Shown here piece after piece: positions 30,940 through 55,979 of a stretch of 64,000 nucleotides of DNA. The stretch is from Cellulosimicrobium terreum (GTDB taxonomy: Bacteria; Actinomycetota; Actinomycetes; Actinomycetales; Cellulomonadaceae). Position numbers and translations under genes: made by a program. The notes below the pieces were generated by a model. That model was given only the letters and a program-made list of their open reading frames with translations. It ran no database searches and was not told where the DNA came from. How positions within the stretch are numbered: the stretch's first letter is position 1; every line of letters starts with the position of its first letter. The stretch spans positions 1-64,000 of the forward strand of contig JACYFD010000008.1 in the NCBI GenBank assembly GCA_014803435.1, given 5' to 3'.

Positions 30940-31543
30940 GTCTCGGGGCCAGATCAGGGCGGATACCTGATCCGCAGCGCTTGGTCCCCGGCGATCGCGG
31001 CGCTCGCCCTGGTGCGGCGCAGCCTGGGGCTCGCCGGTGTGCGGGCATGTGCTGCCGGCGATGCTCGCGGTGCTCGCCGTCGGTCCGGTCGAGGAGATCG
31101 GCTGGCGCGGCTACGCCTTGCCTCTGCTGCAGCGCCGGTTCACCCCGCTGATCGCGAGCCTGGTCCTGGGCGCGCTCTGGGGGCTGTGGCACCTGCCCGC
31201 GTTCCTGTTCAGCGGGACCGCGCAGGGAGGGTGGTCGGTCTGGCCGTTCCTGCTCGGCGCGCTGGCGCTGTCCGTCCTCATGACGGGGATGTTCAACGCG
31301 TCCCGCGGCAGCATCCTCATTCCCGTGCTCGTCCACTTCCAGCTCAACGGCCCGGCCTGGCCCGAGGGGCATCCGTGGGAGAACGACGTGTTCGCCGCGG
31401 CCGTGGTGGCGCTGGTCGTCTGGAAGCGGGACCTGTTCCTGCGTCGTGACCACGCGGCCACCGAGCTGGTTCGTCACGCCGCACGACGTACCCGACCGCG
31501 GCGCCACCCGAGCGACCGTGACGCTCGGGTGACGCCGCAGTGA
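30940..31543 (+). pseudogene. Decayed CPBP (CAAX-like) intramembrane protease
   Basis: An open frame beginning at GTG 31037 encodes 168 residues with the CPBP core: VGPVEEIGWRGYALPLLQRR (the EExxxR motif) and GALWGLWHLPAFLF (the FxxxH-like motif), plus the final N/H helices (MTGMFNAS, VLVHFQLNG). The N-terminal transmembrane half is missing; full-length members have about 250-300 residues. Just upstream, in a different frame (30950-31025), lies YLIRSAWSPAIAALALVRR, which resembles the family's earlier helix. A deletion with frameshift therefore broke the gene. It sits at the left border of the injection-system locus. Confidence 0.7.
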
Positions 31544-31565
31544 CGGCGATACCGGAGGCTCGACG
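31518..31565 (+). promoter_or_regulatory. Three-repeat SARP-type operator upstream of the sheath operon
   Basis: GTGACGC (31518-31524), GTGACGC (31529-31535) and GTGACGG (31540-31546) recur at an exact 11-bp period, one helical turn. After 11 nt comes AGGCTCGACG (31556-31565). The same four-part arrangement with identical spacing precedes the minus-strand CIS operon (55928-55975). Tandem repeats at 11-bp spacing are the classic site for SARP regulators, and a SARP gene lies at 56093. The sheath ATG is 38 nt further on. Confidence 0.8.
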
Positions 31566-31603
31566 TACGGACGGTCGTCCCGCCGGCGTCGAAGGAGCCA
31601 CCC

Positions 31604-33151
31604 ATGACCATCACTCCCACCCACCCGGGTGTCTACATCACCGAGGTGCCGAGCGGGAACCGCGCGATCACGGGTGTCGCGACGTCGATCACGGCGTTCG
31701 TGGGCCCGGCGGACCGTGGGCCCGCAAACGAACCGGTGCAGATCAGCAGCCTCGCCGACTTCGACCGCCGGTTCGGCGGCCTGGCGCGCAACAGCGGTCT
31801 CGGCTACGCGGTGCGGGACTTCTACCTCAACGGCGGGGGTCGCGCCATCGTCGTGCGGATAGCGGCCGCCGACGCGCAGACCGCGACCCTGGAGGTCGGC
31901 GACGTCACCCTGGAGGCCGCCGGACCGGGCGAGTGGGCCAACACCCTCGAGGTGGAGGTGCAGCACCTGCCCGACCCGGAGGCCGCCGAGGTGGCCGAGT
32001 CCCAGGGCGCCGGGATCGAGGGCGGCGACCTGTTCACCCTGATCGTGCGGGAGGCCCCGGGCGCGGAGCCTTCCGAGGTGTTCCGCAACGTCACCATGCT
32101 CGATGGTCCACGGCGTGTGGACCGGGTGCTGGAGGCGTCGTTGCTGGTCCAGGCCGTGGCGGTCCCGGACGCCGGCAACCCCCGTCCGCCCGCTGCCACG
32201 GTGACGGTCGCTGCGGGCGACGAGGGTGCCTCAGGATCCACGATCGTCGCCACCGACTACGCGAGCGCGGCCCTCCAGTCGTCGCGGGGAGGGATCTTCG
32301 CGCTCGAGGACGCGGACCTCGTCAACATCATCGTCCTGCCGCCTCCCACCCCCGGTGGGGCTCTGCCCGCCGCGGTGTGGCCGGAGGCTCTCGCCTACGC
32401 GGTGACGCGGCGCGCGTTCCTCGTCGTCGACCCGCCGCCGGACACGACGCCTGCCGACGCCGCGACGTTCGCGGCCGACAGCGGTCTGACAGGCATCGCC
32501 GCCCGCAACGCCGCTCTCTACTACCCACGGGTCCGGCACGCAGACCCGCTGCGCGGCGGGACGATCGGGACGTTCGCCCCGGGTGGTGTCGTCGCGGGGG
32601 TCATGGCACGGACCGACGGCGCCCGCGGGGTCTGGAAGGCTCCCGCCGGTCTGGAGGCCGCGATGACCGGCGTCGTCGACCTGGAACGACACCTCACGAA
32701 CGACGAGAACGGCGACCTCAACCCGCGCGGGATCAACGCGCTGCGCACGTTCCGCGACGCCGGGTCCGTGGTCTGGGGAGCTCGCACCCTGCGAGGTGCG
32801 GACGTGCTGGCCGACGAGTACGGGTACGTGCCGGTACGACGGTTCGCCCTGTTCCTCGAGGAGAGCCTGTTCCGGGGCACCCAGTGGGTCGTGTTCGAAC
32901 CCAACGACGAACCCCTGTGGGCGCAGATCCGTCTCACGGTGGGCGGGTTCCTGCAGGACCTTTTCCGCAAGGGCGCGTTCCAGGGCCGGACGCCGCGCGA
33001 GGCGTACTTCGTCAAGTGCGACGCCGAGACCACCACCCAGTTCGACATCGACCGCGGGATCGTGAACATTCAGGTCGGGTTCGCACCGCTCAAGCCGGCG
33101 GAGTTCGTCATCGTCTCGGTCCAGCAGAAGACTGCTGCGGCCACCGACTAG
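31604..33151 (+). CDS. CIS tail sheath protein
   Basis: The 515-residue contractile sheath subunit. The N-terminal THPGVYITEVPSGNRAITGV, then GPADRGPANEPVQISSLADF, and the C-terminal block (YGYVPVRRFALFLEESLF, QWVVFEPNDEPLWAQI, YFVKCDAETTT) are the standard phage/CIS sheath domains. Sheath rings surround the tube and shorten on firing to drive it through a membrane. It is first in the plus operon behind the three-repeat operator, with a GAAGGAG ribosome site. Only one sheath gene is present, unlike the several paralogues of the Afp/PVC systems. Confidence 0.96.
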   Translation: MTITPTHPGVYITEVPSGNRAITGVATSITAFVGPADRGPANEPVQISSLADFDRRFGGLARNSGLGYAVRDFYLNGGGRAIVVRIAAADAQTATLEVGDVTLEAAGPGEWANTLEVEVQHLPDPEAAEVAESQGAGIEGGDLFTLIVREAPGAEPSEVFRNVTMLDGPRRVDRVLEASLLVQAVAVPDAGNPRPPAATVTVAAGDEGASGSTIVATDYASAALQSSRGGIFALEDADLVNIIVLPPPTPGGALPAAVWPEALAYAVTRRAFLVVDPPPDTTPADAATFAADSGLTGIAARNAALYYPRVRHADPLRGGTIGTFAPGGVVAGVMARTDGARGVWKAPAGLEAAMTGVVDLERHLTNDENGDLNPRGINALRTFRDAGSVVWGARTLRGADVLADEYGYVPVRRFALFLEESLFRGTQWVVFEPNDEPLWAQIRLTVGGFLQDLFRKGAFQGRTPREAYFVKCDAETTTQFDIDRGIVNIQVGFAPLKPAEFVIVSVQQKTAAATD

Positions 33152-33161
33152 GAGGCATACC

Positions 33162-33680
33162 GTGGCCGAGTTCACCGTCAACGCCACCCGGTTCGACCCA
33201 TACAAGAACTTCAAGTTCCGCGTGAAGTGGGACGGCAGGTACGTGGCCGGCATCAGCAAGGTCAGCGCGCTCAAGAAGACCACCGAGGTGGTGACGCACC
33301 GCGACGGTGCCGACCCGTCGAGCAGCCGCAAGTCGCCCGGTCGCACCGAGTACGAGGCGATCACGCTCGAGCGGGGCATCACGCACGACCCGGAGTTCGA
33401 GAAGTGGTCCGACAAGGTGTGGGGGTTCGGCGCCGGGCTCGGCGCCGAGTCGTCCCTCGCGGACTTCCGCAAGGACGTCATCCTGGAGATGTACAACGAG
33501 GCGGGGCAGCTCGCGCTGGCCTACAAGATCTACCGCTGCTGGGTCTCGGAGTACCAGCCGATGCCCGAGCTGGACGCGAACGCGAACGGCGTGGCGATCG
33601 CGATGCTCAAGCTCGAGAACGAGGGCTGGGAGCGCGATACCGCCGTCGCCGAACCCACCGAACCGACGCTCGAGGCGTGA
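33162..33680 (+). CDS. CIS inner tube protein (gp19/Hcp-like)
   Basis: The 172-residue tube subunit. FDPYKNFKFRVKWDGRYVAG, then SKVSALKKTTEVV, GITHDPEFEKWSDKV and YKIYRCWVSEYQPMPELDAN are the family landmarks. Hexamers stack to form the tube inside the sheath and may hold cargo in the lumen. GTG start with GGAGG upstream, 10 nt after the sheath stop. Its stop codon overlaps the next ATG by 1 nt. Confidence 0.95.
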   Translation: MAEFTVNATRFDPYKNFKFRVKWDGRYVAGISKVSALKKTTEVVTHRDGADPSSSRKSPGRTEYEAITLERGITHDPEFEKWSDKVWGFGAGLGAESSLADFRKDVILEMYNEAGQLALAYKIYRCWVSEYQPMPELDANANGVAIAMLKLENEGWERDTAVAEPTEPTLEA

Positions 33681-35532: not shown

Positions 35533-36773
35533 GCAACACCCTGGCGATCGCCGCGGTGACGACGAGCATCCGGTTCCTGCTGCACGAGGCGCTGACCGGT
35601 GCCGAGCCGGCGCCCGTCGGCGGTGCCGACGTCACGACGCTCCGGCCCGCCCAGCTCGCCGACGCCGACACCGTCGGGACGGGCGCGTCGGGTCTCAACG
35701 TGTACCTGTACCAGGTCACGCCCAACCACGCGTGGAACCTGCACGACCTGCCGACGCGCCATCGCGACGGCAGCCTCGCGCGCCGTCCCACCACCGCGCT
35801 CGACCTGCACTACCTCGTCACCGCGTACGGCGACGAGGAGGCGCTGGAGCCCCAGCGGCTGCTCGCCCGCGGCGCGCTGGCGCTCGCGGCAAACCCGGTG
35901 CTCACGAGGTCGGTGATCGAGGCGGCGGTCGACACGTTCGACTCAGGGGCGACGAGCTTCCTGGACGCCGCCGACCTGGTCGACCAGGACGAGCTCGTGA
36001 AGATCACGGCGACGCCCCTGCCCCTGGAGGAGCTGTCGAAGCTGTGGGGGGTGCTCGGCACCCCGTACCTGCTCTCGCAGGCGTACACGGCCACGGTGGT
36101 GATCATGGAGGCCGCGCTGCCGGTCCGCACGCCGCTGCCGGTCACGACGCGTGCGCTGACGGTCCGGCCGTTCGGGCGGGTCCTGCTCGACGACGTCGCG
36201 GTCGACGGCGGCGGTCCCGCCGTCACCGGAGCCACGCTGGTGCTCACGGGGCGTGGACTCCTGGGTGCCCGCACCGTCGTCTCGATCGCCGGGGAGCGGC
36301 TCGAGGTCGAGCCGTCGTCGCGCACCACGCGCCTCACGACGATCCTTCCCGGCACCGTCAGGGCAGGCGTCCACGCAGTCCAGGTGGTGCACGACGAGGA
36401 GCCGGGCGCGCCGGGGGAGCCGACCCGGGTGCTGGCCCGGTCCGACGCGCTGCCCCTGGTCGTGCGGCCGGACGTCGGCACGGTGACGACGACGGCGACG
36501 CTGGTGCGAGTCCCCGTGTCACCGGGTGTGCGGGAGGGGCAGCGCGCCACGGTCGGCCTCGTCCGGCTCGACGGCGACCCTGACGTCCCGGCTCTCGTCG
36601 AGGAGCACTTCGGGCCCGTGGACGCCGCCGACGAGCCGGTCGACCTGCTGGACGTGCCCCGGGCGTCGCTCTCCCCGGGGACGTGGCTGGTGCGCGTCCT
36701 CGTGGACGGCGTCCCGAGCCTGCCGACGAGGTCGGACGACACGTTCGACGGACCCGTGGTGGTGCTGGCGTGA
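35529..36773 (+). CDS. CIS tail cap protein, DUF4255 plus TIG-like domain
   Basis: A 414-residue protein. Residues 1-200 form a DUF4255 domain (MSNTLAIAAVTTSIRFLLHE, GLNVYLYQVTPNHAWN, LDLHYLVTAYG, YTATVVIMEAALP), the family of Afp16/Pvc16 caps that terminate tube and sheath. Residues about 215-320 look like an IPT/TIG Ig fold (GATLVLTGRGLLGARTVVSI, LTTILPGTVRAGVHAVQVVH), and a further beta domain follows. Start ATG 35529 overlaps the preceding stop (ATGA); its own stop overlaps the ATPase start (GTGA). Confidence 0.92.
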   Translation: MSNTLAIAAVTTSIRFLLHEALTGAEPAPVGGADVTTLRPAQLADADTVGTGASGLNVYLYQVTPNHAWNLHDLPTRHRDGSLARRPTTALDLHYLVTAYGDEEALEPQRLLARGALALAANPVLTRSVIEAAVDTFDSGATSFLDAADLVDQDELVKITATPLPLEELSKLWGVLGTPYLLSQAYTATVVIMEAALPVRTPLPVTTRALTVRPFGRVLLDDVAVDGGGPAVTGATLVLTGRGLLGARTVVSIAGERLEVEPSSRTTRLTTILPGTVRAGVHAVQVVHDEEPGAPGEPTRVLARSDALPLVVRPDVGTVTTTATLVRVPVSPGVREGQRATVGLVRLDGDPDVPALVEEHFGPVDAADEPVDLLDVPRASLSPGTWLVRVLVDGVPSLPTRSDDTFDGPVVVLA

Positions 36774-38644
36774 GCACCGTCACCGGCGCCGACGCCCGCG
36801 ACCTGGTGGTGAGCGAGCTGGCGGTCGTGCGGGCCGACCTGCTCGGCCGGGATGCCGCCCCCGAGCGCGCGAGGCTCGACGCGCAGCGCGAGCGCGTGCC
36901 CGGCCCGGGCCCGCTGGACGACCTCGAGTCGGGGTTCGGCCTGAGCGCGTTCGAACGCCGGACCCTGCTGCTCGCGTGCGGCCCGGAGCTGGTGGGCGAG
37001 GTAGCGCGCGAGCTCGTCGAACGGACGGGGAGCCCGCACCTCACGTTCGGCGCCGCGCTGGAGCACCTGCCGGGCGCCCACTGGGACGCACTGGTCCCGG
37101 AGGCACCGTTGCGCCGCTGGGGGCTCGTGAGCCTGACAGAGTCGTCGTCGTTGCTCGCGGCGCCGCTGATCCCTGACGAGCAGGTGGTGCACCGGTTGGC
37201 CGGCGTCGAGGCGCTGGACGAGGAGCTGGAGCTGCGCAGCCTGCCGGTCGGAGGCCTGGCTCCGCTCGCACCGGCGCACCGCGCCGTGGTCTCGGAGGTC
37301 GTCGCCCGCTGGGAGTCCGACGGCCCGGTCGTGCTGCGCGGACCGCAGCCGGGCACCACCCGGGCGGTGGCCGCCGCGGCGTGCGCGGTCGTGGGCCTGA
37401 CCCCCCGGCTCCTCGGCGGCGCCGACCTGCCGTCCGGTGTCGTCGACCTGGAGCGGCTGCTGCGCCGGCTCGTGCGCCAGACGGTGCTCGGGCGGGTCGG
37501 GTGGCTGATCGACCTGGACGCGCCGCACGTGCCCGACGCGCTCGGTCGTGCCCTCGCCGCGGGCGACGCGCCCGTCGTGCTGCTGGGAGCGTCGGGGACG
37601 CAGGCCGCCGTGCTGGAACGGCTCGGCCTGCCGGTCCTGGAGGTGCCGAGGCTCGGCGCGGGGGCACGGCGCGCGGTGCTGGCCGCGGCGTTGTCCCGGG
37701 CGGGCACCGCCGCGCCCGACGACGAGGTCGAGGCCGCCGCGGGCGCGTTCGACCTGGCGGCGGACGACGTCGACGACGTGGCGCGCGACGTCGCCTCCGG
37801 CATGCCCCTGTGGTCGGCGTGCCGGCGTCGGCCGCGCGCCGACGTCGGGAGTCTCGCGCAGGTGCGGGTCGCCCGGGCCGGGTGGGACCGGCTGGTGCTG
37901 CCCGCGGCCCAGGTCGCGCAGCTGCGCGCGCTGGTGGCGACCGTGCGGCATCGCGCCACGGTCCTGGACGACTGGGGCTTCGGGGCGTCGTCGAGCCGGG
38001 GCCGGGGCACGACCGCGCTGTTCACGGGCGACAGCGGGACCGGCAAGACGTTCACCGCCGAGGTCCTCGCGCACGACCTGCAGCTCGACCTGGTGCACGT
38101 CGACCTGTCCCAGGTGGTCGACAAGTACGTCGGGGAGACGGAGAAGCGGCTCGCGCGCCTGTTCGACGCCGCGGAGGACGGCGGCATGGTGCTGCTGTTC
38201 GACGAGGCGGACGCCCTCTTCGGGAAGCGCTCGGACGTCAAGGACAGCCACGACCGGTACGCCAACGTCGAGGTCGGGTACCTGCTGCAGCGTCTGGAGG
38301 CGTTCACCGGGCTGGCGGTCCTGACGACGAACGCCCGCAGCTCCCTGGACCAGGCGTTCACCCGACGCCTGTCCGCCGTGGTCACCTTTCCCTACCCGGA
38401 CGTGGCCGCCCGTCGGCGCATGTGGGCGCAGAGCCTGCCCGACGCCGTGCCGTCTCGCGACGTCGACCTCGACCGCCTGGCGCAGGCCGACCTCTCCGGC
38501 GGTGGCATCGCCGCCGCTGCGCTCGTCGCCGCGTTCCTCGCGGCCGACGACGGCAGGGTCCTGACGATGGAGCACCTCACCCAGGCGGTGCGCTGGGAGC
38601 TGGGCAAGTCCGGGCGGGTGTCCGGTCTGCGCGACCCGCGCTGA
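36770..38644 (+). CDS. CIS AAA+ ATPase (Afp15/Pvc15 type)
   Basis: A 624-residue ATPase. A long helical N-terminal region (about 370 residues, with a degenerate P-loop-like first half) is followed by an active AAA+ module. Walker A is GDSGTGKT (about residues 421-428), Walker B is VLLFDEAD (about 474-481), sensor 1 is VLTTNARS, and a TRRLS segment may supply the arginine finger. Such ATPases accompany eCIS loci and are thought to act in assembly or cargo loading. It is the last gene of the plus operon and converges with the minus operon; only 10 nt separate the two stops. Confidence 0.93.
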   Translation: MSTVTGADARDLVVSELAVVRADLLGRDAAPERARLDAQRERVPGPGPLDDLESGFGLSAFERRTLLLACGPELVGEVARELVERTGSPHLTFGAALEHLPGAHWDALVPEAPLRRWGLVSLTESSSLLAAPLIPDEQVVHRLAGVEALDEELELRSLPVGGLAPLAPAHRAVVSEVVARWESDGPVVLRGPQPGTTRAVAAAACAVVGLTPRLLGGADLPSGVVDLERLLRRLVRQTVLGRVGWLIDLDAPHVPDALGRALAAGDAPVVLLGASGTQAAVLERLGLPVLEVPRLGAGARRAVLAAALSRAGTAAPDDEVEAAAGAFDLAADDVDDVARDVASGMPLWSACRRRPRADVGSLAQVRVARAGWDRLVLPAAQVAQLRALVATVRHRATVLDDWGFGASSSRGRGTTALFTGDSGTGKTFTAEVLAHDLQLDLVHVDLSQVVDKYVGETEKRLARLFDAAEDGGMVLLFDEADALFGKRSDVKDSHDRYANVEVGYLLQRLEAFTGLAVLTTNARSSLDQAFTRRLSAVVTFPYPDVAARRRMWAQSLPDAVPSRDVDLDRLAQADLSGGGIAAAALVAAFLAADDGRVLTMEHLTQAVRWELGKSGRVSGLRDPR

Positions 38645-38654
38645 GCACCGCGAC

Positions 38655-39197
38655 CTACCCCCTGCCCTCCCGGGCGGCGGCACGGAGCGCGAGGTCGACC
38701 TCCGCCGCGACCGACGGCACGACGTCCTGGTCGCGCAGCCACGCGAGCGTCGCGGTGGCGCGGGTCCCGCCGAGCTCACCGAGCGAGCAGGCGGCACGTT
38801 CGAGCTCGTCGTCGGTCAGGGCGGTGTGCCGCACGAGGTGGTCGAGTGCCGCGACGGCGTCGTCCACGGGGACGAGCCCGAGCAGGTCGATGGCGCACGG
38901 ACGCACCATGGGGTCGTCGAGGAGCGGGACGACGCGCCGCACCACCTCGGCGCCGCGGTCCCGACCCGCGGCGGCCACGGCGTCCTGCAGGAGGGACTCG
39001 AAACCGGCGCGGTCGGGCACGGGCACCCGTGGGTCGCCGACGTCCGCGAGGATGCCGAGGAGGTCGTCGAGCGACGACGCGTCCAGACCGGCGAGGAGCT
39101 CCCGTTCGGCATGGCGGCGCTGCCGCGGCGTGGTGAACGGGCCGAGCGGCCCGACGAGGTGGGCGAGCTCGTGCCACAGGTCGTCGCGCCGGCTCAT
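38655..39197 (-). CDS. Small helical (HEAT-like) protein coupled to the cargo gene
   Basis: A 180-residue, largely alpha-helical protein with short HEAT/Armadillo-like units (DDLLGILADVGDPRVPVPDR, VVRRVVPLLDDPMVRPCAI, AVAALDHLVRHTALTDDELE, RATATLAWLRDQDVVPSVA). No enzyme motif is seen. Its ATG overlaps the cargo gene stop (ATGA), and it is the last gene of the minus operon. The position suggests an adaptor, chaperone or immunity protein for the cargo; this is inference only. Confidence 0.75.
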   Translation of the reverse strand: MSRRDDLWHELAHLVGPLGPFTTPRQRRHAERELLAGLDASSLDDLLGILADVGDPRVPVPDRAGFESLLQDAVAAAGRDRGAEVVRRVVPLLDDPMVRPCAIDLLGLVPVDDAVAALDHLVRHTALTDDELERAACSLGELGGTRATATLAWLRDQDVVPSVAAEVDLALRAAAREGRG

Positions 39198-42100
39198 TCG
39201 GGCACCTCGGCGGTGTCCTCCTCGTCGATGACCAGCTCGTAGACGGTGGTGGTCGCCTCGGAGCCGATGAAGTACCCGATGCCCCCGGCGAGCAGCGTCC
39301 CGACGCCGTGCCCCAGCCACGCCCACGGCCCGGCGACGTCGGCGGGGGTGTACCAGTAGGCGAACGCGGCCCCGGCGGCGGTGGCACCGGCCCAGCCCCC
39401 GGCCACGCTGAGGACCTCCCGCGTCGTGTCCTCGGCGGTGACGATGCGATAGGCGTCGTTGGCGAGGCCGATGACGATGAGCACCCGTCCGCCGTACCGG
39501 AACACTCCCCGCACCCGCCCGGACCACCGGTTGCGGATCGCGGCCTCCTCGGCGGCGGCGGCGAGCACCGGGTCGGCGGCCTCGCCCACGTTGCGCAGGG
39601 CCGCGAGGACGGTGGTCGCGCCGCCGCGGATGCGGATCTTGGCGGCATCGCGCACGACGGCGAACCGGCCGTTGCCGCTCCGGGAGAACCGGCTGTTCTC
39701 CAGGACGACCTCGCCCACCCCGTGCTGGGACGCCCGCACCTGCTCCCCGACCCGCTGCCACATGCGCGACTCGGCGGCCTGGTCGAGGAACTTGCCGCGC
39801 ATGTAGCGCCGCTGCTTGGAGTTCAAGGGGGTCGAGTCGTCGATGTGAGCGGTCCGCCGGTACTCCGCCTCGACGACCGGCTCCAGGGCGGCACGCTCGC
39901 GCTCGAAGACCTCGAGCAGCTCGGCCTCGCGGAACACGATCGCGGTGTCGGCGTTCACGAGCTCGACGGGGATGGAGACGCTGCCGCCGCGGTCCGCGCC
40001 GACGTACGGCGTGCCTTCGGTCACGAACCAGGCGACGCCCCCGACGCGGCCCAGGTCGGGTCGCCACGGGAACCGGCCCTCCGTCGAGCTGCGCAGGATC
40101 TCCAGGGCGACGTCGGACGGCACCCCGGCGTTCGCCGGCCGACCGGCGGCGAGGTCGCGCGGCAGGGCCGTGCCGAACCCGGGGTGGTCCGGGTCCGCGA
40201 GCCGCCGGCCCAGCTCCTCCTCGACGTCGGCGAGCAGGGGTTCGTCGACGTCGACCAGCGCCTCCCGGTACAGCGCGAGGATGGCGTCGTCGGACAGGGT
40301 GCTGAGGTCGAGGGGCGGGGGAGCGGGCTCCGGCTCCGGCGTCGCACCCTTGGAGAAGTCGCGGGCCTGCCGCATGCGTTCGCGCTCGGCCTCCCGCTCC
40401 GCCTCGAGGGCCGCCTGGCGCTGCACCTCGTCGGGGGTCGGCGCGGGCGGCGCGACCGGCGTCGGCTGTGGCGGGCCGGGCTCCGCGAGCTCCTCGGCGA
40501 ACTCGTTCGCCGTCGTGCGCGCGTCGTCCTCCGGCGGCTCGATGGCGAGCATCTCGGTCTCGAAGGTGTCCGCCTGCGGCGTCGTCGACGGGTGCTGCGC
40601 GGCGTCGATCGCGAGCAGGTTCGAGTCGCCGAAGTAGTTCTCGGGCTCGATGCCGGCGAGCGGGTTGGCGGCGGGGTCGTCGCGGTAGTGCCGGCGGAGG
40701 AAGAGCATGAAGGCGAGAGAGTCGCCGGGAAGACCGTCGAGGGGGTCGTTCGTGTCCTCGAGCAGCCAGTCGACCAGCTCGTCCATGCCGGACACCTTGC
40801 GCTCCCACGCCCGGCGCAGCCGCTGCAGCACCCCGGCGTGCTCCGGGCGGTACGGGTGGTTGAGCGCGCGGGCCCGCAGCGCGATCTCTCGCAGCGGCAA
40901 GGGGTCCAGCTCGGCGTCCGTGCCGGACGCCGGCGGGGCAGAGACGTTCCAGAACTGCCCGGCCGAGGGCACGGTCGCGGGCTCGCGCACCTTCAGCTCC
41001 TCGCCGGCCTCCGACCGACCGGTCCCCGCGTGGATCATCTCGACCAGCCGGTCGTGGTCCTCCTGCCCGACGACGAAGAACTCGGTCGGCACGTGCCCGC
41101 GCAACCCGAACACGCGGGCGACGTACTCCCGCTTCTCCTCGTCGGGTGCGGGCCGCAGCTCCAACGGCAGGAAGTCCTGTTCCATGAGGAAGTCGAAGGC
41201 CTCCTCGGGGGTGGCGAGGTGGCTCGCCCCGATCTGGACGGACTCGTACCCCTGGTACACCGTCGGCGCCCACACCCAGGCCTGCCCCCCGACCATCGAG
41301 CGCAGCACGTCGAGCGCCTGGTCCGACTGCCCGAACTCGCACCCCCGCACGATGACGCGCGTCTGGTCGTCGATCATCGTCGCGACGACGTCGCGCCGTC
41401 GCTGTCGGAACCGGGCGTGCATCCCCTCCTGGAACTCCTCCTGCAGGTCGTCGGCGTCCCACACGGTGAAGAACCGGTGGCGGGCGACGTCGCCCCGGGT
41501 GAGCGGGATCTGCATGCCTCCGGCGGCGTTCGCGTGCGTGACGACGACCAGCTCGCGCAGGTGGGCCGACCGGTCGGTCGGGACGCGACGCATCTCGGTG
41601 TAGAGCGTGTCGAACATCGCCTCGAAGCTGTGCGAGCGGATCAGCCGGTGCCCGGGGTAGTAGCGGCTGATGAACTGCTCGGCGGCCTGGCCGTAACCTC
41701 CGCCGGTGAACACGAACGCGAAGTCGAGCTCGGCGACCTCCGGCCGGTTGGACGTCGTCGGCGCGGAGGCCGGGGTGTCGACGTCCTGGGTGGGCAGCGG
41801 TTCGAGGCCGACGAACTCGCCACCGGTGGCGCCCGCGGTCGGTGCGACGAGACCCCCCGGTGTGCCGGTGGATGTCCCCGCGGCGGTGCCCAGCCGTCGG
41901 CCGTCCCGGGCTGCGTGCTCCTCCGCGGCAGTCGCACCCTGCGGTGCCCGCCCCGCGGTGGGCCGGGTTCCCGGGCGGGCGCCGAGGGCGTGCCCGAGCT
42001 CGTGCTCGACGACGTGCTCGGCCGCGAGGGTGCCGCGCCCGACCTCCGGGCCGAGGTAGACGTGCCGGCCGACGGTGAACGCCCGCGCCCCGAGCCGGGC

Positions 42101-42325: not shown

Positions 42326-42338
42326 GGCAGACGTCCGT

Positions 42339-45275: not shown

Positions 45276-45277
45276 GG

Positions 45278-47479: not shown

Positions 47480-49980
47480 GGGACCACCTCCACGTCCATC
47501 AGGGCGGCGGTCAGCCGCAGCGCCTGCGCGGGCAGCAGCCGTGTGCCGTCCCAGCGGGCCTCCTCGGCCACCAGCAGGTCGTCGCCGACGGCGGTCGCCG
47601 CCGGTGCGACCAGCCGCGGCACCGTCGCGGACACGACCCCGTCGACCTCGGACGCGGTGACGAGCACCCTCGCCGCCGCCACCGGGACGGCGAGCGGGAG
47701 ACCGCCGAACCTCGTCAGCAACGCCGCCGACACCGCCTCCCGCACGGCCTCGGTCTCGAACCGCGGGTCCACCTGCAGCCGGATCCGGGCACCGACGTCG
47801 AGCACCTCGCCCGCGAGCAGCACGCGCGGTGCACGCTCGTCACGCGCACCGTCGATCGTGGCCGCCAGGTCCGCGATCAACGAGACCGACGCCGGACCGC
47901 CGTCCGCCGCCAGCACCGACACCACCACGGTGTCCGTACGGCCGTCCCACACCAGGTCGGCACGCGCGCTGCCCACGCCCGAGAAGGCGCGGGCGAAGTC
48001 GCCGTAGTCGTCCACCGAGACCGCCCGGTCGAGGGTGCGAACCCGCTGCGGCGCGTTCGTCCGTGCGCTCTCCAGGTCCTCGGGCGGCGCCCAGTCCCGG
48101 GACGCCGCGAGGTTGCGCACCGTCGCGATCCCGCGCGGGCGGCGCACCGGGAGCGACACCTGCCCCGGCTCCGCGACCCCGTCCGCACCCAGGCCGATCC
48201 GGTACACCGCGCGCACGTTCTCCACCCCGGAGGGCAGCCGCGACCCGTGCACCCCGTCACCGAACGTCACGGTCGACGACGCCGTGTCGTCCTGCCGCAC
48301 GACGTACACCTGGTCGGTCGGCCCCGCGTCGTGCAGCGTCTCCACCTCGGCCCAGGCGACGTCCTCCACCCGCACCTGCAGCGCCGCGGCCGCACCGGTC
48401 GCGTTCGTCGTCGTGCGCACGTACGTCAGCGACGGTCGTCGCAGCGCGAACGACGCGAACACTTCCCGCCCGTCGCCCGAGCCGAGCACGTGCTCCACCG
48501 TCTCGCCGTGCGTGGCCGCGGTGACGTTCCCGAGGACGCGCACCGTGCCCGGCCGGTAGTCGTGCACGAGCGGCGGCTCCAGCGTGAGCCTCTGCACCGG
48601 GTCGCCCGGCGCCTCGCCGCCGCCCGCCGGGCCCGTCACGGCCTGCACCGCCACCACGGTGGTGACCTCCACCTGCACCTCGCCGCCGGGACCGACCCCC
48701 GTCACCAGCACCGCCCGGTCGGCAGGGAGCGGCGGGTCGCTCACCGCGACGTCCAGCGTGTGCCCGGTGCCCGCGTCCCCCGCCCCGAGCGGGACCGGAC
48801 TCGGCATCCACGTCGCCGGGAGCTCTGTGCTCACCGCGAGCACCAGCGCACCGTTGCGACGGAACTGCTCGATGTTGTGCGCCAGGTCCACCGTGACCCG
48901 GGTGAGCTTTCCCGACAGCCCGAACTTGGTCGCGCCGTCGGTGACGACCGCCGACACCTGGAACGCCTCCGTCCGACCCGGCTGGTCCAGCACCAGCCAC
49001 GACCCCGGCACGACGTCGGCAGCGTCGCCGTCCAGCTCCAGCTCGCGCACGCCCGCGCGCAGCGCATATCCCGGCCACGGCACCGGCTGGTCGTTCAGCA
49101 GTGCCGGGTCGGGCGCGTTCCAGCCGAACAGCGACAACCGACGCGACAGCGAGTAGACCCGCACGTCCTCCTCGGCGACCAGGGTCCGGGACCTCCGGAA
49201 GCCGATGCGGCGGTCCAGCCGCAACCGGGTCCAGCCCGGTGCCTCCTCGGGCGTGTCGACCGCCGCGACACGGCGGAGCTCCCACCGCTCGTGGTCGTCC
49301 GAGTGCACGGCGTCGGCCGCGACGTCGCGGCGCTCGCGGCCGACGACGAGCAGGTGGTCACCGGACCTCACGGCGGGTGCCGTCGTCGTGAGCCAGATCT
49401 CCCGGGTCCCGTAGCCGAGCGGCTGGGGGACCCGGTCGTGGGCCGCGAGCTCGTTCCACGCCCCCCGGGCCTCGACCTCGTCGGAGGTCTCGAAGACCTG
49501 GGGGAGCGAGCCGGGTGCGGGGATCGTCTGCACCGGCGTGCCGGCAGGCACGATGACGGACGCGGGTGCGCCGGGCGCGGTCTCCACCTGCCAGGCGAGG
49601 TCGGTGCGGGCGGCGACGCCGGGGCGCAGCTCGTACCCGAGGGTGCGTGCGAGCTCGCGCACGGACCGGGACTCGGTGGCCGTGCGCAGCAGACCCTCGG
49701 TGGCGATGCGCTCGGTGTAGAAGGAGACGACGTCGCCCACCACGGCCCACGCGTCGAGGAGCGCCACGGCAGGGTCGGCGGTGCGGTCGGGGCTGCCGGT
49801 GCCGGAGCCGTGGGTGGCGAGCGAGCGCACCGGCTGCGGGTGCCTGCCGTCCGCCAGCGCCGCGCGGAGACGTTCGAGCGCCGCTCCGTGCGGGGCCACC
49901 CGCCAGGCGATCCGGTCCTGACCGGGCGGGTTCGACGGGACCGTCCCCGTGGCGACCGACGCGTGCTCGTCCGCATTCAC
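47476..49980 (-). CDS. Baseplate wedge protein (J-like, Afp12 type)
   Basis: An 834-residue putative baseplate assembly protein. The early segment DPAVALLDAWAVVGDVVSFY, then TERIATEGLLRTATESRSV and RELARTLGYELRPGVAARTD, is the standard signature of this CIS/phage group. The C-terminal third has J-like features (NLAASRDWAPPEDLE, RAVSVDDYGDFARAFSGVG, RIRLQVDPRFETEAVREAV). It forms the wedge that triggers sheath contraction. GTG 49980 (VNADEHASVATG) overlaps the preceding stop by 4 nt. Confidence 0.92.
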   Translation of the reverse strand: MNADEHASVATGTVPSNPPGQDRIAWRVAPHGAALERLRAALADGRHPQPVRSLATHGSGTGSPDRTADPAVALLDAWAVVGDVVSFYTERIATEGLLRTATESRSVRELARTLGYELRPGVAARTDLAWQVETAPGAPASVIVPAGTPVQTIPAPGSLPQVFETSDEVEARGAWNELAAHDRVPQPLGYGTREIWLTTTAPAVRSGDHLLVVGRERRDVAADAVHSDDHERWELRRVAAVDTPEEAPGWTRLRLDRRIGFRRSRTLVAEEDVRVYSLSRRLSLFGWNAPDPALLNDQPVPWPGYALRAGVRELELDGDAADVVPGSWLVLDQPGRTEAFQVSAVVTDGATKFGLSGKLTRVTVDLAHNIEQFRRNGALVLAVSTELPATWMPSPVPLGAGDAGTGHTLDVAVSDPPLPADRAVLVTGVGPGGEVQVEVTTVVAVQAVTGPAGGGEAPGDPVQRLTLEPPLVHDYRPGTVRVLGNVTAATHGETVEHVLGSGDGREVFASFALRRPSLTYVRTTTNATGAAAALQVRVEDVAWAEVETLHDAGPTDQVYVVRQDDTASSTVTFGDGVHGSRLPSGVENVRAVYRIGLGADGVAEPGQVSLPVRRPRGIATVRNLAASRDWAPPEDLESARTNAPQRVRTLDRAVSVDDYGDFARAFSGVGSARADLVWDGRTDTVVVSVLAADGGPASVSLIADLAATIDGARDERAPRVLLAGEVLDVGARIRLQVDPRFETEAVREAVSAALLTRFGGLPLAVPVAAARVLVTASEVDGVVSATVPRLVAPAATAVGDDLLVAEEARWDGTRLLPAQALRLTAALMDVEVVP

Positions 49981-52556
49981 GACGCACCCCCCAGCTGGAC
50001 CCGGACGTGCCCGGCCTCGGGGTCGTTCGGGTCGGAGTCGCAGCGCAGCAGCTCGCGCGGTGCCATGACCAGGACGCCGGCGCGCAGGGACGCCGCGGCC
50101 TGCGCCCGGGTCGCGCCCGCCCGGGCGAAGCGGCGCAGCTCGACCCACGACACGCCGTCCACCGTCATGGCCGCGCCGACGACGTCGGACAGCCGCAGGG
50201 GCTGGCCGAACGTGAACCGGTCCGGGTGGAAGAAGCCGGGGCTGCCGTCGCGGCGGACACCGGCAGTGAAGACCTCGCGCAGCACGGCGGTGACGTCGGG
50301 TACCAGGTAGCCGTCCGCGACACAGCCGCCGAGCACGAGCTCCAGGGGGACGTGGAGCGGGCGTTCGAGCGCGACGTCGACGCCGGCCATGCGGCGCACC
50401 TCGAGCGCGGCGAGCACCTCCGCGCGCAGCACGGGGTCGTCCGCGCGGGATGCCACCGGGTCGAGGGTGACGGACTGGGCGTACCAGGAGCCGGTCCAGC
50501 GGCGCCGGGCGACCGCACGCTGCGTGCCCGGGTTCTGCTCCGCGACCGCGGCATGGTCGGCCGAGGTGACGGCACGGCGCTGGGTCCGGAACGCTGCCGG
50601 GGCGAGCTGGCGCACCTGTTCCAGCGCCTCCGGTTCACGCCCTCCGGACGCAGGCAGCGGGTTCCACGACCGCAGGTCCGCGCCGCCTGCCGGGTCGGTG
50701 CCGCCGGGGAGCAGGAGCAGGCGCACGAGGCGTCCGGGCCCGACGTCGCCGGCAGCGCCGGAGCCGACCCGGTACGTCGCGCGCGGGGTCGCACCCACGA
50801 CGGGACGCCGACCGTGGCCCTGCGCGCCGAACCGCAGCCGGCTCACCCCGCCCGGCTCCGGCTCGACCACCAGGTGGGTCGCGAGCCGACCGCTGCCGAG
50901 CATGTCGTCGCGCGGGGTCCACGTCCGCAGGCCGTCGTCCAGGGCGAGTGCCGCCGCGGCCCGCCGCGGGTCCGGGGCGAGCAGGGCGGTCACGGACGAC
51001 GACGGCGCGAGGACCGGGTCCACGCGCGACAGGCCGGGGCGCTGCAGCCGCGGCCGGTACGCGAGGCCGGCGCCGACGGTCGGCGGCACGAGCGCCTCGT
51101 CCGGCACGGTGGCACCGTGGTCGGCGACCACCACGTTCGCGAGCGCCGCCGCCCGCGCCGCCTCGGTCCCCGGCTCGGACACCCGCAGGGGCGCCGGCAG
51201 GGCGTCGGCCGGGTTCCAGCGGACCTCCCACACGGTGATGCCGGGCTCGAGCGGGTCACCGTGCTCCACGGCGTCCGCGGTCAGCCGGACCCCGAACCGC
51301 CGGCCGGGGTGTCCGTCACGCGGGTCGGCGCCCACGGGACGGTCCACCAGCACCAGCAGGTCGCCGGCACGCAGCAGCGGGTCGGTACCGGCGTCGGTGC
51401 GCAGGAAGGCGGACGTGGCGCCTGCGGGCAGCCAGTGGTCGTCGTCGCCCCACGCGTACAGGTCGAGGGCGTTGCGCTCGGGCCGGACCGTCAGCGGCGC
51501 GACGGTCTCGAAGACGGTGCGGCCCGCGTCGGTCGCCTCGACCGGCACCGTGGGCTCCACGGCACCCGGCGCCACGACGATGCGCGCGTCGTCGGGCAGG
51601 TCGGCCACGGGGGTGCCCACGGGCAGGGTCAGCGTGGTGTCGGTCTCCAGGGCGAGCAGGGTGCGGGCCGAGCAGCCCTCGTGGACGCGGTAGCCGAGCA
51701 GGCGGGCGTGGCGGCGCACGGACGTCCGCCGACGTGCCGTGCCGAGGTACGCCTCGGCGGCGACCGCGTCCTGCCAGGCGGCCAGCCGGTCGCCGACGGC
51801 GGCGAACAGCTCGGTCACCATGACGGCGGGGTCGGCCGGGCTGCGGTCCGTCCAGCCGGGTTGCAGCGTCGCGAGCCGGTCGAGCAGCCGGGTGCGCAGC
51901 GCCGCGTAGTCGCGGGCGAGGTAGTCGCCGGGGGCGAGCGCCTCCACCGGGGGCGCCACGACGGTCTCGACCCGGCAGTCCAGGTCGGACGGGCAGTCGA
52001 CGGCGAACCGGAACGTCGCCGTCGCGAGCACGGGGTCGATGCCGTCCGGCACGCCCGTGCCGCCGGGCCCGAGGAGCCGCAGCGTGTACGTGGACAGGTC
52101 GCCCGGCGTCGTGGTCCGCACCACGAGCCCGCGCTCGCGCCCGACGTCGTCCGGCAGGCCTTGCGCGACGAGCAGCCGGTCGGCGGGCTCGACCCCGTCG
52201 AGAGGGTCGGTCGCGGGGGTGCCCGCGGTGCCGGCCACCTGGGGTGCCGGGTAGGCCCACTCGACCCCGACCGGGTTGACGTCCGGGTCGTCCCGCACGC
52301 CCCCGGCGAGGGCGACCGTGCCGACGCCCCAGCCGGCGGGGACGGGCCCGTTGAGCAGGTGCACGACGAGGGTGCGCTGGGACGGTGCGCCGGGCACGTG
52401 CCCCGGCGTGCCCGCGTGGTTGGACAGCACCTCGACGAAGTCGATGCCGTCCAGGTCGGCACGACCGCGCACGCGGGAGCGCCGCGCCTCGCGGTCGATC
52501 GTCCCGCCGAAGACCGCGACCTCGGCGGACTCGGTGACGGCCTCGGTCGCGCTCAT
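49977..52556 (-). CDS. Baseplate wedge protein (J-like, Afp11 type)
   Basis: An 859-residue baseplate assembly protein, paralogous in layout to the following gene: PADPAVMVTELFAAVGDRLA, WQDAVAAEAYLGTARRRTSV, RRHARLLGYRVHEGCSARTL in the middle, and a J-like C-terminal third (RRAVTSADHAAVAEQNPGTQ, ALEVRRMAGVDVALERP, FTFGQPLRLSDVVGAAM). The first 250 residues are a beta-rich addition beginning FGGTIDREARRSRVRGRAD. Start ATG 52556 overlaps the gp25 stop (ATGA). Together the two J-like proteins are expected to build the inner baseplate ring. Confidence 0.92.
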   Translation of the reverse strand: MSATEAVTESAEVAVFGGTIDREARRSRVRGRADLDGIDFVEVLSNHAGTPGHVPGAPSQRTLVVHLLNGPVPAGWGVGTVALAGGVRDDPDVNPVGVEWAYPAPQVAGTAGTPATDPLDGVEPADRLLVAQGLPDDVGRERGLVVRTTTPGDLSTYTLRLLGPGGTGVPDGIDPVLATATFRFAVDCPSDLDCRVETVVAPPVEALAPGDYLARDYAALRTRLLDRLATLQPGWTDRSPADPAVMVTELFAAVGDRLAAWQDAVAAEAYLGTARRRTSVRRHARLLGYRVHEGCSARTLLALETDTTLTLPVGTPVADLPDDARIVVAPGAVEPTVPVEATDAGRTVFETVAPLTVRPERNALDLYAWGDDDHWLPAGATSAFLRTDAGTDPLLRAGDLLVLVDRPVGADPRDGHPGRRFGVRLTADAVEHGDPLEPGITVWEVRWNPADALPAPLRVSEPGTEAARAAALANVVVADHGATVPDEALVPPTVGAGLAYRPRLQRPGLSRVDPVLAPSSSVTALLAPDPRRAAAALALDDGLRTWTPRDDMLGSGRLATHLVVEPEPGGVSRLRFGAQGHGRRPVVGATPRATYRVGSGAAGDVGPGRLVRLLLLPGGTDPAGGADLRSWNPLPASGGREPEALEQVRQLAPAAFRTQRRAVTSADHAAVAEQNPGTQRAVARRRWTGSWYAQSVTLDPVASRADDPVLRAEVLAALEVRRMAGVDVALERPLHVPLELVLGGCVADGYLVPDVTAVLREVFTAGVRRDGSPGFFHPDRFTFGQPLRLSDVVGAAMTVDGVSWVELRRFARAGATRAQAAASLRAGVLVMAPRELLRCDSDPNDPEAGHVRVQLGGAS

Positions 52557-53002: not shown

Positions 53003-53316
53003 GTCGCACGCACCCGCGCAGCCGCGGACTGGGCCTGCATCGGCACTCCCGTGGGAGCGCACGTGCCGGTCGAGCCGAGGAACGCGAGGGGCACGCCATC
53101 GCACGTGACGCGTGTGGTGCCGCTCGTCCACTGGCCCGACACGTCGGGCCCACCCGCGTTCGGGGGGTGGGCGCAGCCCGCGACGGTGTACGGAGCCGTC
53201 TGCAGGACCGCCGCGACGCCGTCGAGCGTGACACGGGGCGCGCCCGCCGACGGGGTCGCGACCCCTTGGTGTGTGCACGCGACCTTCGACGCGATGGTGA
53301 GCAGGTTCCCCGGCAT
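52999..53316 (-). CDS. PAAR-like spike tip protein
   Basis: A 105-residue protein with MPGNLLTIASKVACTHQGVA, then GAPRVTLDGVAAVLQTAPYT, VAGCAHPP and TRVTCDGVPLAFLGSTGTC. The Cys/His pattern and small beta repeats match PAAR-like (DUF4280-type) tips that cap the spike, usually around a metal ion. It sits between spike and gp25 genes, overlapping the spike stop by 1 nt (TGATG). Confidence 0.88.
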   Translation of the reverse strand: MPGNLLTIASKVACTHQGVATPSAGAPRVTLDGVAAVLQTAPYTVAGCAHPPNAGGPDVSGQWTSGTTRVTCDGVPLAFLGSTGTCAPTGVPMQAQSAAARVRAT

Positions 53317-53810
53317 CACGTCACCTCCAGCGCACCGTTGTTGAGGGACACCGACGGCGTCGAGGCGCTGATGGACGCGGACCCGGCCGTGACCTCGAAC
53401 CCGGAGCTCGTCGCCGTGATCTCCACGGGGACCGCGACCGCGGGCTTCTCGACCGTGAGGCGCAGGCCGCCCGCTCCCGGCAGGTCCGTCGCCTCGATCG
53501 TCACGGCGTCGGTCTTGAGGATCTTCACCTCCGCGAGGGCGGGGGCCGCGGGCACCTGCCCGGTGCCCCAGAAGCAGCCGCCGAGGATCGGCAGGTCCGG
53601 GTCGCCCGCCTCGAACTCGACCCACACGTTCGCCCCGACCGGAGGGACGAGAAAGAGCCCGACGCCGTCGCCCGCATAGGGGGAGCAGGGCATGGCCCAG
53701 CTCAGGGTCCCCGAGCCGAGCACCGCAGGGCAGGCCACCTGCACGCGGCCGAGCTGCAGCGGGTCGACGTTGTTCTCGACCGTGCCCCGGTACTTGCCGT
53801 AGAAGCGCAC
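53316..53810 (-). CDS. Spike protein (baseplate V / gp5 OB-fold)
   Basis: A 164-residue VgrG/gpV-like spike. The OB-fold domain has GKYRGTVENNVDPLQLGRVQ, VACPAVLGSGTLSWAMPCSP, VGLFLVPPVGANVWVEFEAG and DPDLPILGGCFWGTG; the C-terminal third is a short beta-prism (VTIEATDLPGAGGLRLTVEK, ITATSSGFEVTAGSASISAS). Trimers would form the needle under the PAAR tip. GTG start with AGGAGG about 5 nt upstream, the best ribosome site in this operon, after a 9-nt gap. Confidence 0.94.
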   Translation of the reverse strand: MRFYGKYRGTVENNVDPLQLGRVQVACPAVLGSGTLSWAMPCSPYAGDGVGLFLVPPVGANVWVEFEAGDPDLPILGGCFWGTGQVPAAPALAEVKILKTDAVTIEATDLPGAGGLRLTVEKPAVAVPVEITATSSGFEVTAGSASISASTPSVSLNNGALEVT

Positions 53811-53819
53811 CAGTCCTCC

Positions 53820-54962: not shown

Positions 54963-55267
54963 CGGCCCGACACCCCCGGTTGCGGCACCACGATCTCGGT
55001 GCCGACCGCCTCCGCGTCCGTCAGCGCGTCCGGGTCGAGCGCCGCGTTCGCGTCGCACAGCCGCCAGAACCCGAGCGGGTCGCCCGTGTACCGGTAGCTC
55101 AGCAGGTCCAGCCGGTCACCGGGAACCACCGTGTGCAGCGCGGCCGGCCCCTCCACGTCCACGGGCGGCGGCAACGGGCGACGGCGGAGGTAACGCACCA
55201 GGCGGCGCGTGCCGTCGGGGGCGGTCACCTCCAGCGTGGCGGTCTCGACGTCGTCGTACCGCGACAT
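54959..55267 (-). CDS. LysM-domain baseplate adaptor (C-terminal half of Afp7-type protein)
   Basis: A 102-residue protein with a beta-rich start (YDDVETATLEVTAPDGTRRL) and a LysM domain (HTVVPGDRLDLLSYRYTGDP, LGFWRLCDANAALDPDAL, VGTEIVVPQPG). In Afp7/gp53-like CIS proteins the LysM is fused behind the CIS_tube domain; here the two parts are separate genes 1 nt apart. It probably sits between hub and tube. Confidence 0.9.
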   Translation of the reverse strand: MSRYDDVETATLEVTAPDGTRRLVRYLRRRPLPPPVDVEGPAALHTVVPGDRLDLLSYRYTGDPLGFWRLCDANAALDPDALTDAEAVGTEIVVPQPGVSGR

Positions 55268-55268
55268 G

Positions 55269-55925
55269 TCAGCTCCCCACCGACAGCTCGACGCTCGCCC
55301 CCACGACGCCCGAGACCGCCGCGACCGACGCCAGCACCTCCGCGGCCACGTGGTGCGCCACGTACAGCGCGAACCCCGGGTTCGTCGGTGCCAGGTCGTC
55401 GTAGGTCAAGGCGTCGAGCGTGACGTCGACGCTCGCCCGGACCGGGGCAAGCGCAGGGTTGAAGGCCTGCTCCCGGACCGTGACGCTCGAGACGGTCACC
55501 GGGACCACCCGACCGGGACCCCACACGAGCACCGTCAGCGGTCCCTGCGGCGGCAGGACCTCGATCGTGCCGGCCGCGAGCAGCCCCGTGTTGATCGCCA
55601 CCGTCGCCGCGCTCGGGTACAGCAGCATCTCCAGCGCCGAGAGCTGCGGCAGCACGCCCGTCGTCGTCGCCACGGGGTCCGACGACTCCATGCCGTCGGT
55701 CGCGTCCAGCTCCAACGTCATCGAGATCGACTCCGTCGGTGCCCCCCAGATGCGCTGCGCGTCCACCGACGCACCACCGCCAGCAGGCGGCGTGCGGGGC
55801 CTCAGCTGGCGCGTCACCTCCTGCGGGTTGTACTGGAAGATCACCACGCGGGCGAGCGGGCTCAGCGGGTCGACGGCGACGATCGCGCCCGGCAGGACGC
55901 GCGGGCTCCCCGGAAAGCTGCTCAT
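55269..55925 (-). CDS. CIS tube-initiator protein (CIS_tube N-terminal domain)
   Basis: A 218-residue protein with VVIFQYNPQEVTRQLRPRTP, ESISMTLELDATDGME, LPQLSALEMLLYP, TVLVWGPGRVVPVTVSSVTV and REQAFNPALAPVRASVDVTL, which fits the CIS tube-protein N-terminal family (Afp7 and relatives) that starts tube polymerisation on the baseplate. It is first in the 12-gene minus operon, directly after the three-repeat operator; the ATG is only about 2 nt from the conserved AGGCTCGACG box, so the leader is very short. Confidence 0.88.
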   Translation of the reverse strand: MSSFPGSPRVLPGAIVAVDPLSPLARVVIFQYNPQEVTRQLRPRTPPAGGGASVDAQRIWGAPTESISMTLELDATDGMESSDPVATTTGVLPQLSALEMLLYPSAATVAINTGLLAAGTIEVLPPQGPLTVLVWGPGRVVPVTVSSVTVREQAFNPALAPVRASVDVTLDALTYDDLAPTNPGFALYVAHHVAAEVLASVAAVSGVVGASVELSVGS

Positions 55926-55927
55926 GG

Positions 55928-55979
55928 CGTCGAGCCTGCGCGGCACGCGTCACCGCCGTGTCACGCCGGTGTCACGCCG
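55928..55979 (-). promoter_or_regulatory. Three-repeat SARP-type operator upstream of the minus CIS operon
   Basis: On the minus strand GTGACAC (55975-55969), GTGACAC (55964-55958) and GTGACGC (55953-55947) recur at an exact 11-bp period, then after 11 nt comes AGGCTCGACG (55937-55928). On the plus strand the two outer units read as perfect tandem GTGTCACGCCG copies. The layout is identical in spacing to the element at 31518-31565. It also lies about 115 nt upstream of the divergent SARP gene and could control that too. Confidence 0.82.

Follow-up and report, generated by a model that had tools for sequence, protein, structure and literature searches.

Paired GTGAC triple repeats as candidate SARP-activated promoters of both halves of a contractile injection system in Cellulosimicrobium terreum

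The locus and its two operators

The DNA analyzed here, a stretch of 64,000 nucleotides (nt) from contig JACYFD010000008.1 of Cellulosimicrobium terreum (termed the window), carries a contractile injection system (CIS) whose two operons are each preceded by three phased GTGAC repeats, most probably the operators of a regulator of the Streptomyces antibiotic regulatory protein (SARP) type. The window has a GC content of 73% and the host genome comprises 4.49 Mb in 14 contigs. The CIS is arranged as two converging halves: the plus-strand half begins at 31604 and extends to about 39.2 kb, the minus-strand half begins at 55925 and runs down to 39.2 kb. Pfam analysis of the window revealed a gene set resembling that of extracellular contractile injection systems (eCIS), in which sheath, tube, baseplate, AAA ATPase and eCIS_core are found together.

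The plus half starts with the sheath gene (31604..33151; Pfam Phage_sheath_1 and Phage_sheath_1C), followed by the inner tube gene (33162..33680; Phage_T4_gp19, E 2e-41), further genes and the AAA ATPase gene (36770..38644), for which a scan from 36683 detected AAA and a winged-helix domain and which was matched in the loci of relatives. The first gene of the minus half encodes a CIS_tube family protein (55269..55925; CIS_tube, E 3e-6 in a scan from an upstream start), and the operon further comprises a baseplate/spike OB-fold protein (53316..53810; Phage_base_V), a baseplate J-like protein (47476..50148; Baseplate_J), a Tail_P2_I-like baseplate protein (45278..47479; Tail_P2_I) and, at its 3' end, an eCIS_core domain protein (39194..42325; eCIS_core, E 2.5e-14). 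Divergent from the minus operon, a SARP-type regulator of 258 codons is encoded on the plus strand (56093..56869; Pfam BTAD and AfsR profile match).

Operator A (31518..31544, plus strand) lies upstream of the sheath operon and operator B (55949..55975, minus strand) upstream of the minus (baseplate) operon, between that operon and the divergent SARP gene. Both follow the pattern GTGAC-N6-GTGAC-N6-GTGAC. The original prediction located the GTGAC cores at 31518, 31529 and 31540 (plus strand) and at 55975, 55964 and 55953 (minus strand), corresponding to a period of 11 bp, and reported the 10-mer AGGCTCGACG 11 nt past each set of repeats; all of these elements were recovered, the 10-mer at 31556-31565 and 55937-55928. 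A genome-wide motif scan, proposed along with the prediction, found the exact triple at these two places only in the 4.49 Mb, while the pattern read backwards gave no exact match in the whole genome. Since base composition predicts only about 0.006 exact triples versus the two observed, a chance origin is indeed unlikely, as had been claimed.

For imperfect triples, scores are given as matches over the 15 core positions. The window contains two triples of at least 13/15 at a period of 11 bp and none at the other periods from 7 to 15. With up to three mismatches allowed, five matches in the window compare with 6.8 expected, which is the chance level, so that only the near-exact triple is informative. 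In the whole genome three matches with at most one mismatch were obtained, two of them at the CIS, and 22 with at most two mismatches (20 of them away from the CIS) versus one for the reversed pattern, an imperfect control inasmuch as the reversed core has other dinucleotides.

An open reading frame (ORF) resembling a CAAX protease occupies 31037-31543, and its end falls within the third repeat of operator A. With the stop codon at 31541-31543, inside this repeat, the idea that operator A is part of the upstream ORF was rejected; as a tblastn query at E 1e-8 the ORF gave no match in the 40 regions searched.

Conservation of the operators and the promoter elements

In order to compare the upstream regions of related CIS loci, as had been suggested, 221 genomes of the family including the present one were searched, yielding a sheath match (E 1e-20) in 69 and a close orthologue (at least 62% identity) in 7. 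In all seven closest loci both operators are kept while the surroundings diverge: a triple of 14-15/15 is located 80-91 bp upstream of the sheath start, and a triple of 15/15, oriented to the minus operon, 144-236 bp upstream of the SARP match. Over these seven genomes the mean pairwise identity of the 15 core positions amounts to 94% on the sheath side and 100% on the minus side, versus 38% and 32%, respectively, for the 40 nt upstream of the operators. When the loci of the six relatives were scanned whole, triples of at least 14/15 were confined to these two places, apart from one extra, divergent triple near the sheath in G154. Among the 23 other sheath loci of the family, two of which (L020 and L039) are cut by contig ends and were incorrectly sliced, none exceeded 12/15 within 500 bp; two of these genomes (G020 and G064) carry an exact triple about 0.9 kb further up, upstream of the gene preceding the sheath.

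The 10-mer common to both sites in this genome could point to chance, or to a recent copying of one promoter to the front of the other operon. Evidently, the remaining sequence does not follow this pattern: between the two sites only 5 of 12 positions in the N6 spacers, 12 of 40 upstream positions and 3 of 10 positions in the 10-nt spacer are identical. Spacers and flanks are thus unrelated and operators A and B are not copies of each other. Together with the low expected number of exact triples and the retention of both sites in 7/7 genomes, by which it is already refuted, this leaves the explanation by chance or copying with a negligible probability.

The same comparison changed the view of the 10-mer. 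AGGCTCGACG had been put forward as an invariant fourth element, a claim which failed, since only one of the seven genomes having both sites, the present one, shares it between them. Instead, the 10-mer is a -10 element (GAGGCT or CAGGCT) together with the start region, and its conserved part is the -10 hexamer that overlaps its beginning. Based on the conserved offset, the hexamer of the sheath promoter was assigned to GAGGCT at 31555..31560 (plus strand), with a predicted +1 near 31567, and that of the minus-operon promoter to CAGGCT at 55933..55938 (minus strand), with a predicted +1 at about 55926.

This assignment was derived from 30 operators, defined as CIS-linked triples scoring at least 13/15. 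Within a strongly GC-rich background, the 12th position past the last GTGAC is A in 23/30 and the 16th is T in 22/30. The motif NANNNT follows the last GTGAC after 10 nt in 21/30 and after 11 nt in 6/30, hence in 27/30 together, and occurs in no more than 4/30 at each of the remaining offsets between 0 and 44. A hand-thinned set of 19 operators gave a similar picture (12 at 10 nt, 5 at 11 nt), and for the weak matches elsewhere in this genome NANNNT was present at offsets 9-11 in 1/20. Written as GTGACNN, 8 nt and NANNNT, the arrangement is found at both window sites and in 21/30 operators, is one nt longer in 6 and is unseen in 3. This spacing fits the rule for SARP promoters given in the relevant passages of PMC10936776, namely repeats with a period of 11 or 22 bp, the 3' repeat located 8 bp from the -10 element, and poor -10 and -35 elements. 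In the same passages, SARP binding to direct repeats spaced by 11 bp is in line with what the original prediction had stated.

Both window promoters possess a suboptimal -10 element, and inspection by eye revealed no TTGACA-like -35 element at about 17 nt in either of them. With respect to this, one could assume that the GTGAC repeats, some of which read TTGAC in relatives, are themselves intrinsic -35-like elements (cf. TTGAC) that require no activator. The GTGACN hexamers would then be separated from the -10 element by 9, 20 or 31 nt, none of them near 17, and three phased copies are kept which are present in just one of 27 CIS loci lacking a linked SARP (at 13/15). Intrinsic -35 copies were ruled out for want of a workable spacing, and we regard promoters of this kind as very improbable.

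The distance from the last GTGAC to the ATG of the minus operon is 22 or 23 nt in 7/7 genomes including the present one, an additional in-frame ATG being found upstream of this start in G145. Since the ATG thereby lies six or seven nt past the T of the -10 element in all seven genomes, the mRNA of the baseplate operon is predicted to be leaderless, with the ATG at 55925 adjoining the predicted +1 at about 55926. The spacing to the start is equal on a plasmid of Streptomyces europaeiscabiei, where the coding sequence was annotated independently. For the sheath mRNA, a leader of about 37 nt is predicted, which includes a GAAGGAG ribosome site.

The SARP and its association with the operators

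The proposal that the locus has a SARP gene of its own, with 258 codons, was corroborated by the BTAD domain (PF03704) in 7/7 family members. With E 1.1e-10, the profile of this SARP family hits the AfsR SARP domain (PDB 8hvr), and the match extends over the DNA-binding region. According to a by-eye alignment, R78, T79 and R83 correspond to R87, T88 and R92 of the AfsR recognition helix; all three are invariant in the seven close SARPs, and in ten wider SARPs R78 and R83 are invariant while T79 is T or S. No sensor domain is visible in the SARP, and the signal probably acts on the expression of the SARP gene.

The co-occurrence of SARP and operator was analyzed for 51 CIS loci, consisting of 20 class-level loci (drawn from 47 match places outside this genome), 14 loci from a scan of genome contigs (actinobacterial entries recognized by name among the best 80 sheath relatives listed), 14 loci from the family and three plasmid loci. 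The plasmid loci and several of those from the family were chosen for their SARP, none for its triple. A locus was considered SARP-linked if its stretch contained a match to the SARP profile A2 below E 1e-40, which applies to the three plasmid loci and to L227, where some 25 kb of the same contig separate the SARP from the CIS. The genome-contig loci reach at most 10 kb to each side (5.7 kb in total for L173), so that a more distant SARP could escape. For L201, L211, L218 and L219 the entire genome yielded no SARP at E 1e-15, the genome of L233 has two, and G852 (with a distant SARP, E 3e-17) as well as the second CIS of the present genome were classed as SARP-less.

Triples of at least 13/15 were found in 23/24 SARP-linked versus 1/27 SARP-less loci, and triples of at least 14/15 in 19/24 versus 0/27; for hand-entered counts and with kinship ignored, Fisher's test yields p values of 3e-12 and 9e-10, respectively. 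On a sheath tree of the 51 loci, for which a long-branch warning applies to G060, G065, G852, G803 and G210, 8 changes of the SARP label are required, of which at least five are forced by well-supported branches. The association is therefore not the mark of one clade.

The individual samples illustrate this distribution. Among the best 80 sheath relatives listed, SARP-linked loci with triples occur in Micromonospora (two, each 13/15), Catenuloplanes, Streptomyces tanashiensis, Kitasatospora and Segeticoccus, a Streptosporangiaceae strain is SARP-linked with a triple upstream of a CIS_tube gene, and a Geodermatophilus CIS locus has a triple with the SARP about 25 kb off; 73 others of these 80 reach at most 11/15 within 1.5 kb upstream of the sheath on the coding strand. 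The SARP-less loci of Microbacterium (two), Nostocoides, Crossiella and Arthrobacter contain no triple of 13/15. In the class-wide sample of 20 loci G827 alone has a close SARP and G827 alone has triples of at least 14/15, and in 29 short class-level loci (1.5 kb to each side) a score of at least 13/15 was likewise obtained only at G827. Two of the three plasmid CIS loci with a linked SARP carry triples of at least 14/15 with a -10 element, the third a triple of 13/15 lacking it. Furthermore, two divergent SARP-linked types exhibit triples, G060 one of 14/15 with GACGGT and G065 two of 13/15 with a -10 element.

These data bear on the question whether a real operator could be bound by another regulator, such as a second BTAD protein, PhoP or a protein of the CRP/FNR type, with the neighbouring SARP being incidental. 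GTGA resembles the half-site of CRP, whose sites are palindromic, whereas the GTGAC repeats are direct. There are four other BTAD matches in this genome, and the sites of AfsR and PhoP overlap at the afsS promoter, as reported in the part of PMC10972967 dealing with that promoter. Nevertheless, the operator follows the CIS-linked small SARP over the 51 loci through repeated gains and losses, is missing from 26/27 CIS loci that lack a linked SARP, and is spaced from the -10 element in the manner of SARP promoters. Accordingly, we judge another regulator to be improbable.

On plasmid NZ_CP109155.1 of Streptomyces europaeiscabiei (L361), which has the same CIS architecture, a third operator (8281-8307, minus strand; 14/15, -10 element at offset 11) stands before a divergent gene pair, one member of which encodes a DUF4157 protein. 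In G065 (L347 and L120 joined, minus strand, about 18032) a triple of 13/15 and CAGGCT lead to the SARP gene itself, an ATG being found 6 nt past the hexamer, making self-activation possible.

Proposed co-activation of both halves, a possible wider regulon and known systems

Taken together, we consider it highly likely that both sites act as SARP-activated promoters which co-induce the two halves of the CIS, with binding, activation, start sites and leaderless translation being predictions from the DNA sequence. On one face of the DNA, protomers of the SARP (56093-56869) would occupy neighbouring GTGAC repeats at their 11-bp period. If the -10 hexamer is put at -12 to -7, which is our own placement, the first repeat would begin at about -49, the second at about -38 and the third at about -27. 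The latter two would then fall within the afs box span of the complex of AfsR and RNA polymerase (-40 to -19), and the repeat at about -49 could hold one further protomer. Because of the poor -10 element and the lack, by eye, of a canonical -35 element at normal spacing, the promoters are expected to be near-silent on their own until the SARP recruits the polymerase. The sheath/tube/ATPase and the baseplate/eCIS_core operons would thus be switched on together, the latter as a leaderless mRNA.

Several observations weigh against this interpretation. Pfam calls no DNA-binding half in the SARP, this half being based on the AfsR profile match, and agreement with the 8-bp rule depends on reading the heptamer as GTGACNN, which is our own phasing. 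No NANNNT is present at offset 10 or 11 in 3/30 operators (L212, L215 and one of the two in L217). The SARP-linked CIS locus of G210 has no triple of 13/15 or better, and the triple of L230 lies upstream of the CIS_tube gene, not upstream of the sheath. In addition, the Fisher tests ignore relatedness, several loci having been found via their SARP. Finally, triples occur in 60/221 family genomes, many of them without a CIS, and close SARP homologues with triples are found away from CIS as well.

The last point raises the possibility that the SARP operator serves a wider regulon with the CIS as one of several targets. The closest non-CIS SARP homologue (73% identity) is that of G146, flanked by two triples with a -10 element (L116, 9347 and 11764), one of them upstream of a VanY/peptidoglycan-binding protein and a small protein lacking a Pfam match. 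In G138 (L117, 8530) a SARP homologue of 57% identity is accompanied by a triple whose -10 position is occupied by TAGCGT, upstream of an astacin-family protease. Neither G146 nor G138 is among the 69 family genomes with a sheath match at E 1e-20. Since in these two genomes SARP homologues with triples stand at non-CIS genes, the pair of SARP and operator looks like a reusable module, which is here tied to the CIS. In the present genome one more gene (L151, C7:581399), encoding a protein whose start is similar to that of a PF23719-type gene, has a triple with two mismatches 45 nt upstream. For this genome itself, two of only three matches with at most one mismatch lie at the CIS, and a -10 element at offsets 9-11 accompanies merely 1/20 matches away from it, so that we consider a wider regulon unlikely, albeit with a real chance of being correct. 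The postulated single, dedicated switch co-activating both halves was supported with a correction: operator uniqueness, conservation, co-occurrence with the SARP and the -10 spacing speak strongly for the switch, while "dedicated" applies to this genome, with respect to close matches only, and does not hold for the relatives G146 and G138.

Further arrangements of this kind were observed. G105, G104 and G109 (L113, L114 and L115) combine a SARP homologue with an exact triple without NANNNT at offset 10 or 11, and in these loci the SARP homologue is transcribed divergently from a gene for which a match to Pfam PF23719 was obtained in L113 (G105). A second SARP of Geodermatophilus (L360) is adjoined by four in-phase GTGAC repeats followed by CATCGT (G936:C7:533620-533657). 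Seven phased GTGAC repeats with a period of 11 bp were found in G048 (C9:25568-25638), a genome for which neither a sheath nor a SARP match was listed.

The closest known counterpart of the co-activated promoters is the afsS promoter with its afs box, the target of AfsR in Streptomyces coelicolor (PDB 8hvr, 8jke and 8k60), which likewise has 11-bp direct repeats upstream of a poor -10 element. As described in the structural part of PMC10936776, two AfsR protomers occupy neighbouring 11-bp repeats there between -40 and -19 and contact sigma region 4, the -10 element CACTGT also conforms to NANNNT, and the repeats overlap a poor -35 element at -38 to -33, the very positions which the middle GTGACN occupies here in our placement. 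In contrast, the core given for AfsR in the corresponding section of PMC10972967 is CGTT(T/C)ATCG instead of GTGAC, and there are two repeats rather than three, a target afsS rather than an injection machine, and no counterpart to the small stand-alone SARP found here. Three heptameric direct repeats before activated genes, with 11 bp as the classical SARP unit, are known from the DnrI, ActII-ORF4 and VlmI sites and from PimR at pimM, according to the portions of PMC10972967 and PMC5930380 that cover these operators; these portions give other heptamers (CGGCAAG for PimR), antibiotic gene clusters as targets and, for the main PimR operator, no overlap with the -35 element.

For injection systems, Geller et al. 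2021 (PMC8213781) reported eCIS loci with adjacent BTAD or GerE regulators; in the sections concerned, BTAD appears among the eCIS shell domains and is called a regulator in the legend of the model figure, and no operator or promoter element is described. In the eCIS of Streptomyces coelicolor (sco4242-4263; PMC10020575) the divergent CIS promoters share a single temporal pattern, and sco4263 is a putative regulator of the cluster. It is unlike the present locus in that control is reported to be exerted by bldA through the TTA codon of sco4263, the term SARP being absent from the main text of that paper. For S. clavuligerus, a 2026 paper (PMC13102240) contains, in the part concerned, a STRING-predicted interaction between a SARP gene and CIS genes. 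The claimed novelty thus appears to hold for the operator, none having turned up in the searches of the open-access PMC literature, whereas regulation of eCIS by BTAD/SARP proteins had already been proposed in the cited parts of PMC8213781 and PMC13102240. For CIS the operator appears to be new, as a SARP promoter with a core unlike those of AfsR and PimR, a new kind of target and wide conservation.

In a broader sense, the SARP and its GTGAC-triple promoter likely constitute a portable regulatory module of actinobacterial CIS, both chromosomal and plasmid-borne, which is gained and lost together with the SARP and coordinates separate operons (in S. europaeiscabiei also the divergent DUF4157 operon) by means of an antibiotic-type activator and with a leaderless baseplate half. 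In the literature portions cited above, the control of CIS is attributed to bldA or, as a proposal, to neighbouring BTAD/GerE genes, with no DNA site named. With its operator defined, a candidate for the regulator and start sites predicted, CIS control becomes directly testable. SARP-controlled CIS loci become recognizable from sequence, and SARPs are extended from antibiotic clusters to protein weapons. Moreover, the conserved offset of 10-11 nt to NANNNT provides a usable rule for weak SARP promoters in GC-rich genomes.

Two further arrangements were noted at CIS loci. Close to the sheath, both Micromonospora loci contain a pair of adjacent SARP-like genes in convergent orientation (L163, 5992-7598; L164, 5223-6994). 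The present genome harbors a second, different CIS on contig C7 at about 234.7-248.3 kb (L160, L161 and L007), with a sheath of 41% identity and without a triple, and about 12 kb past it a large reading frame of 1583 codons contains a BTAD domain.

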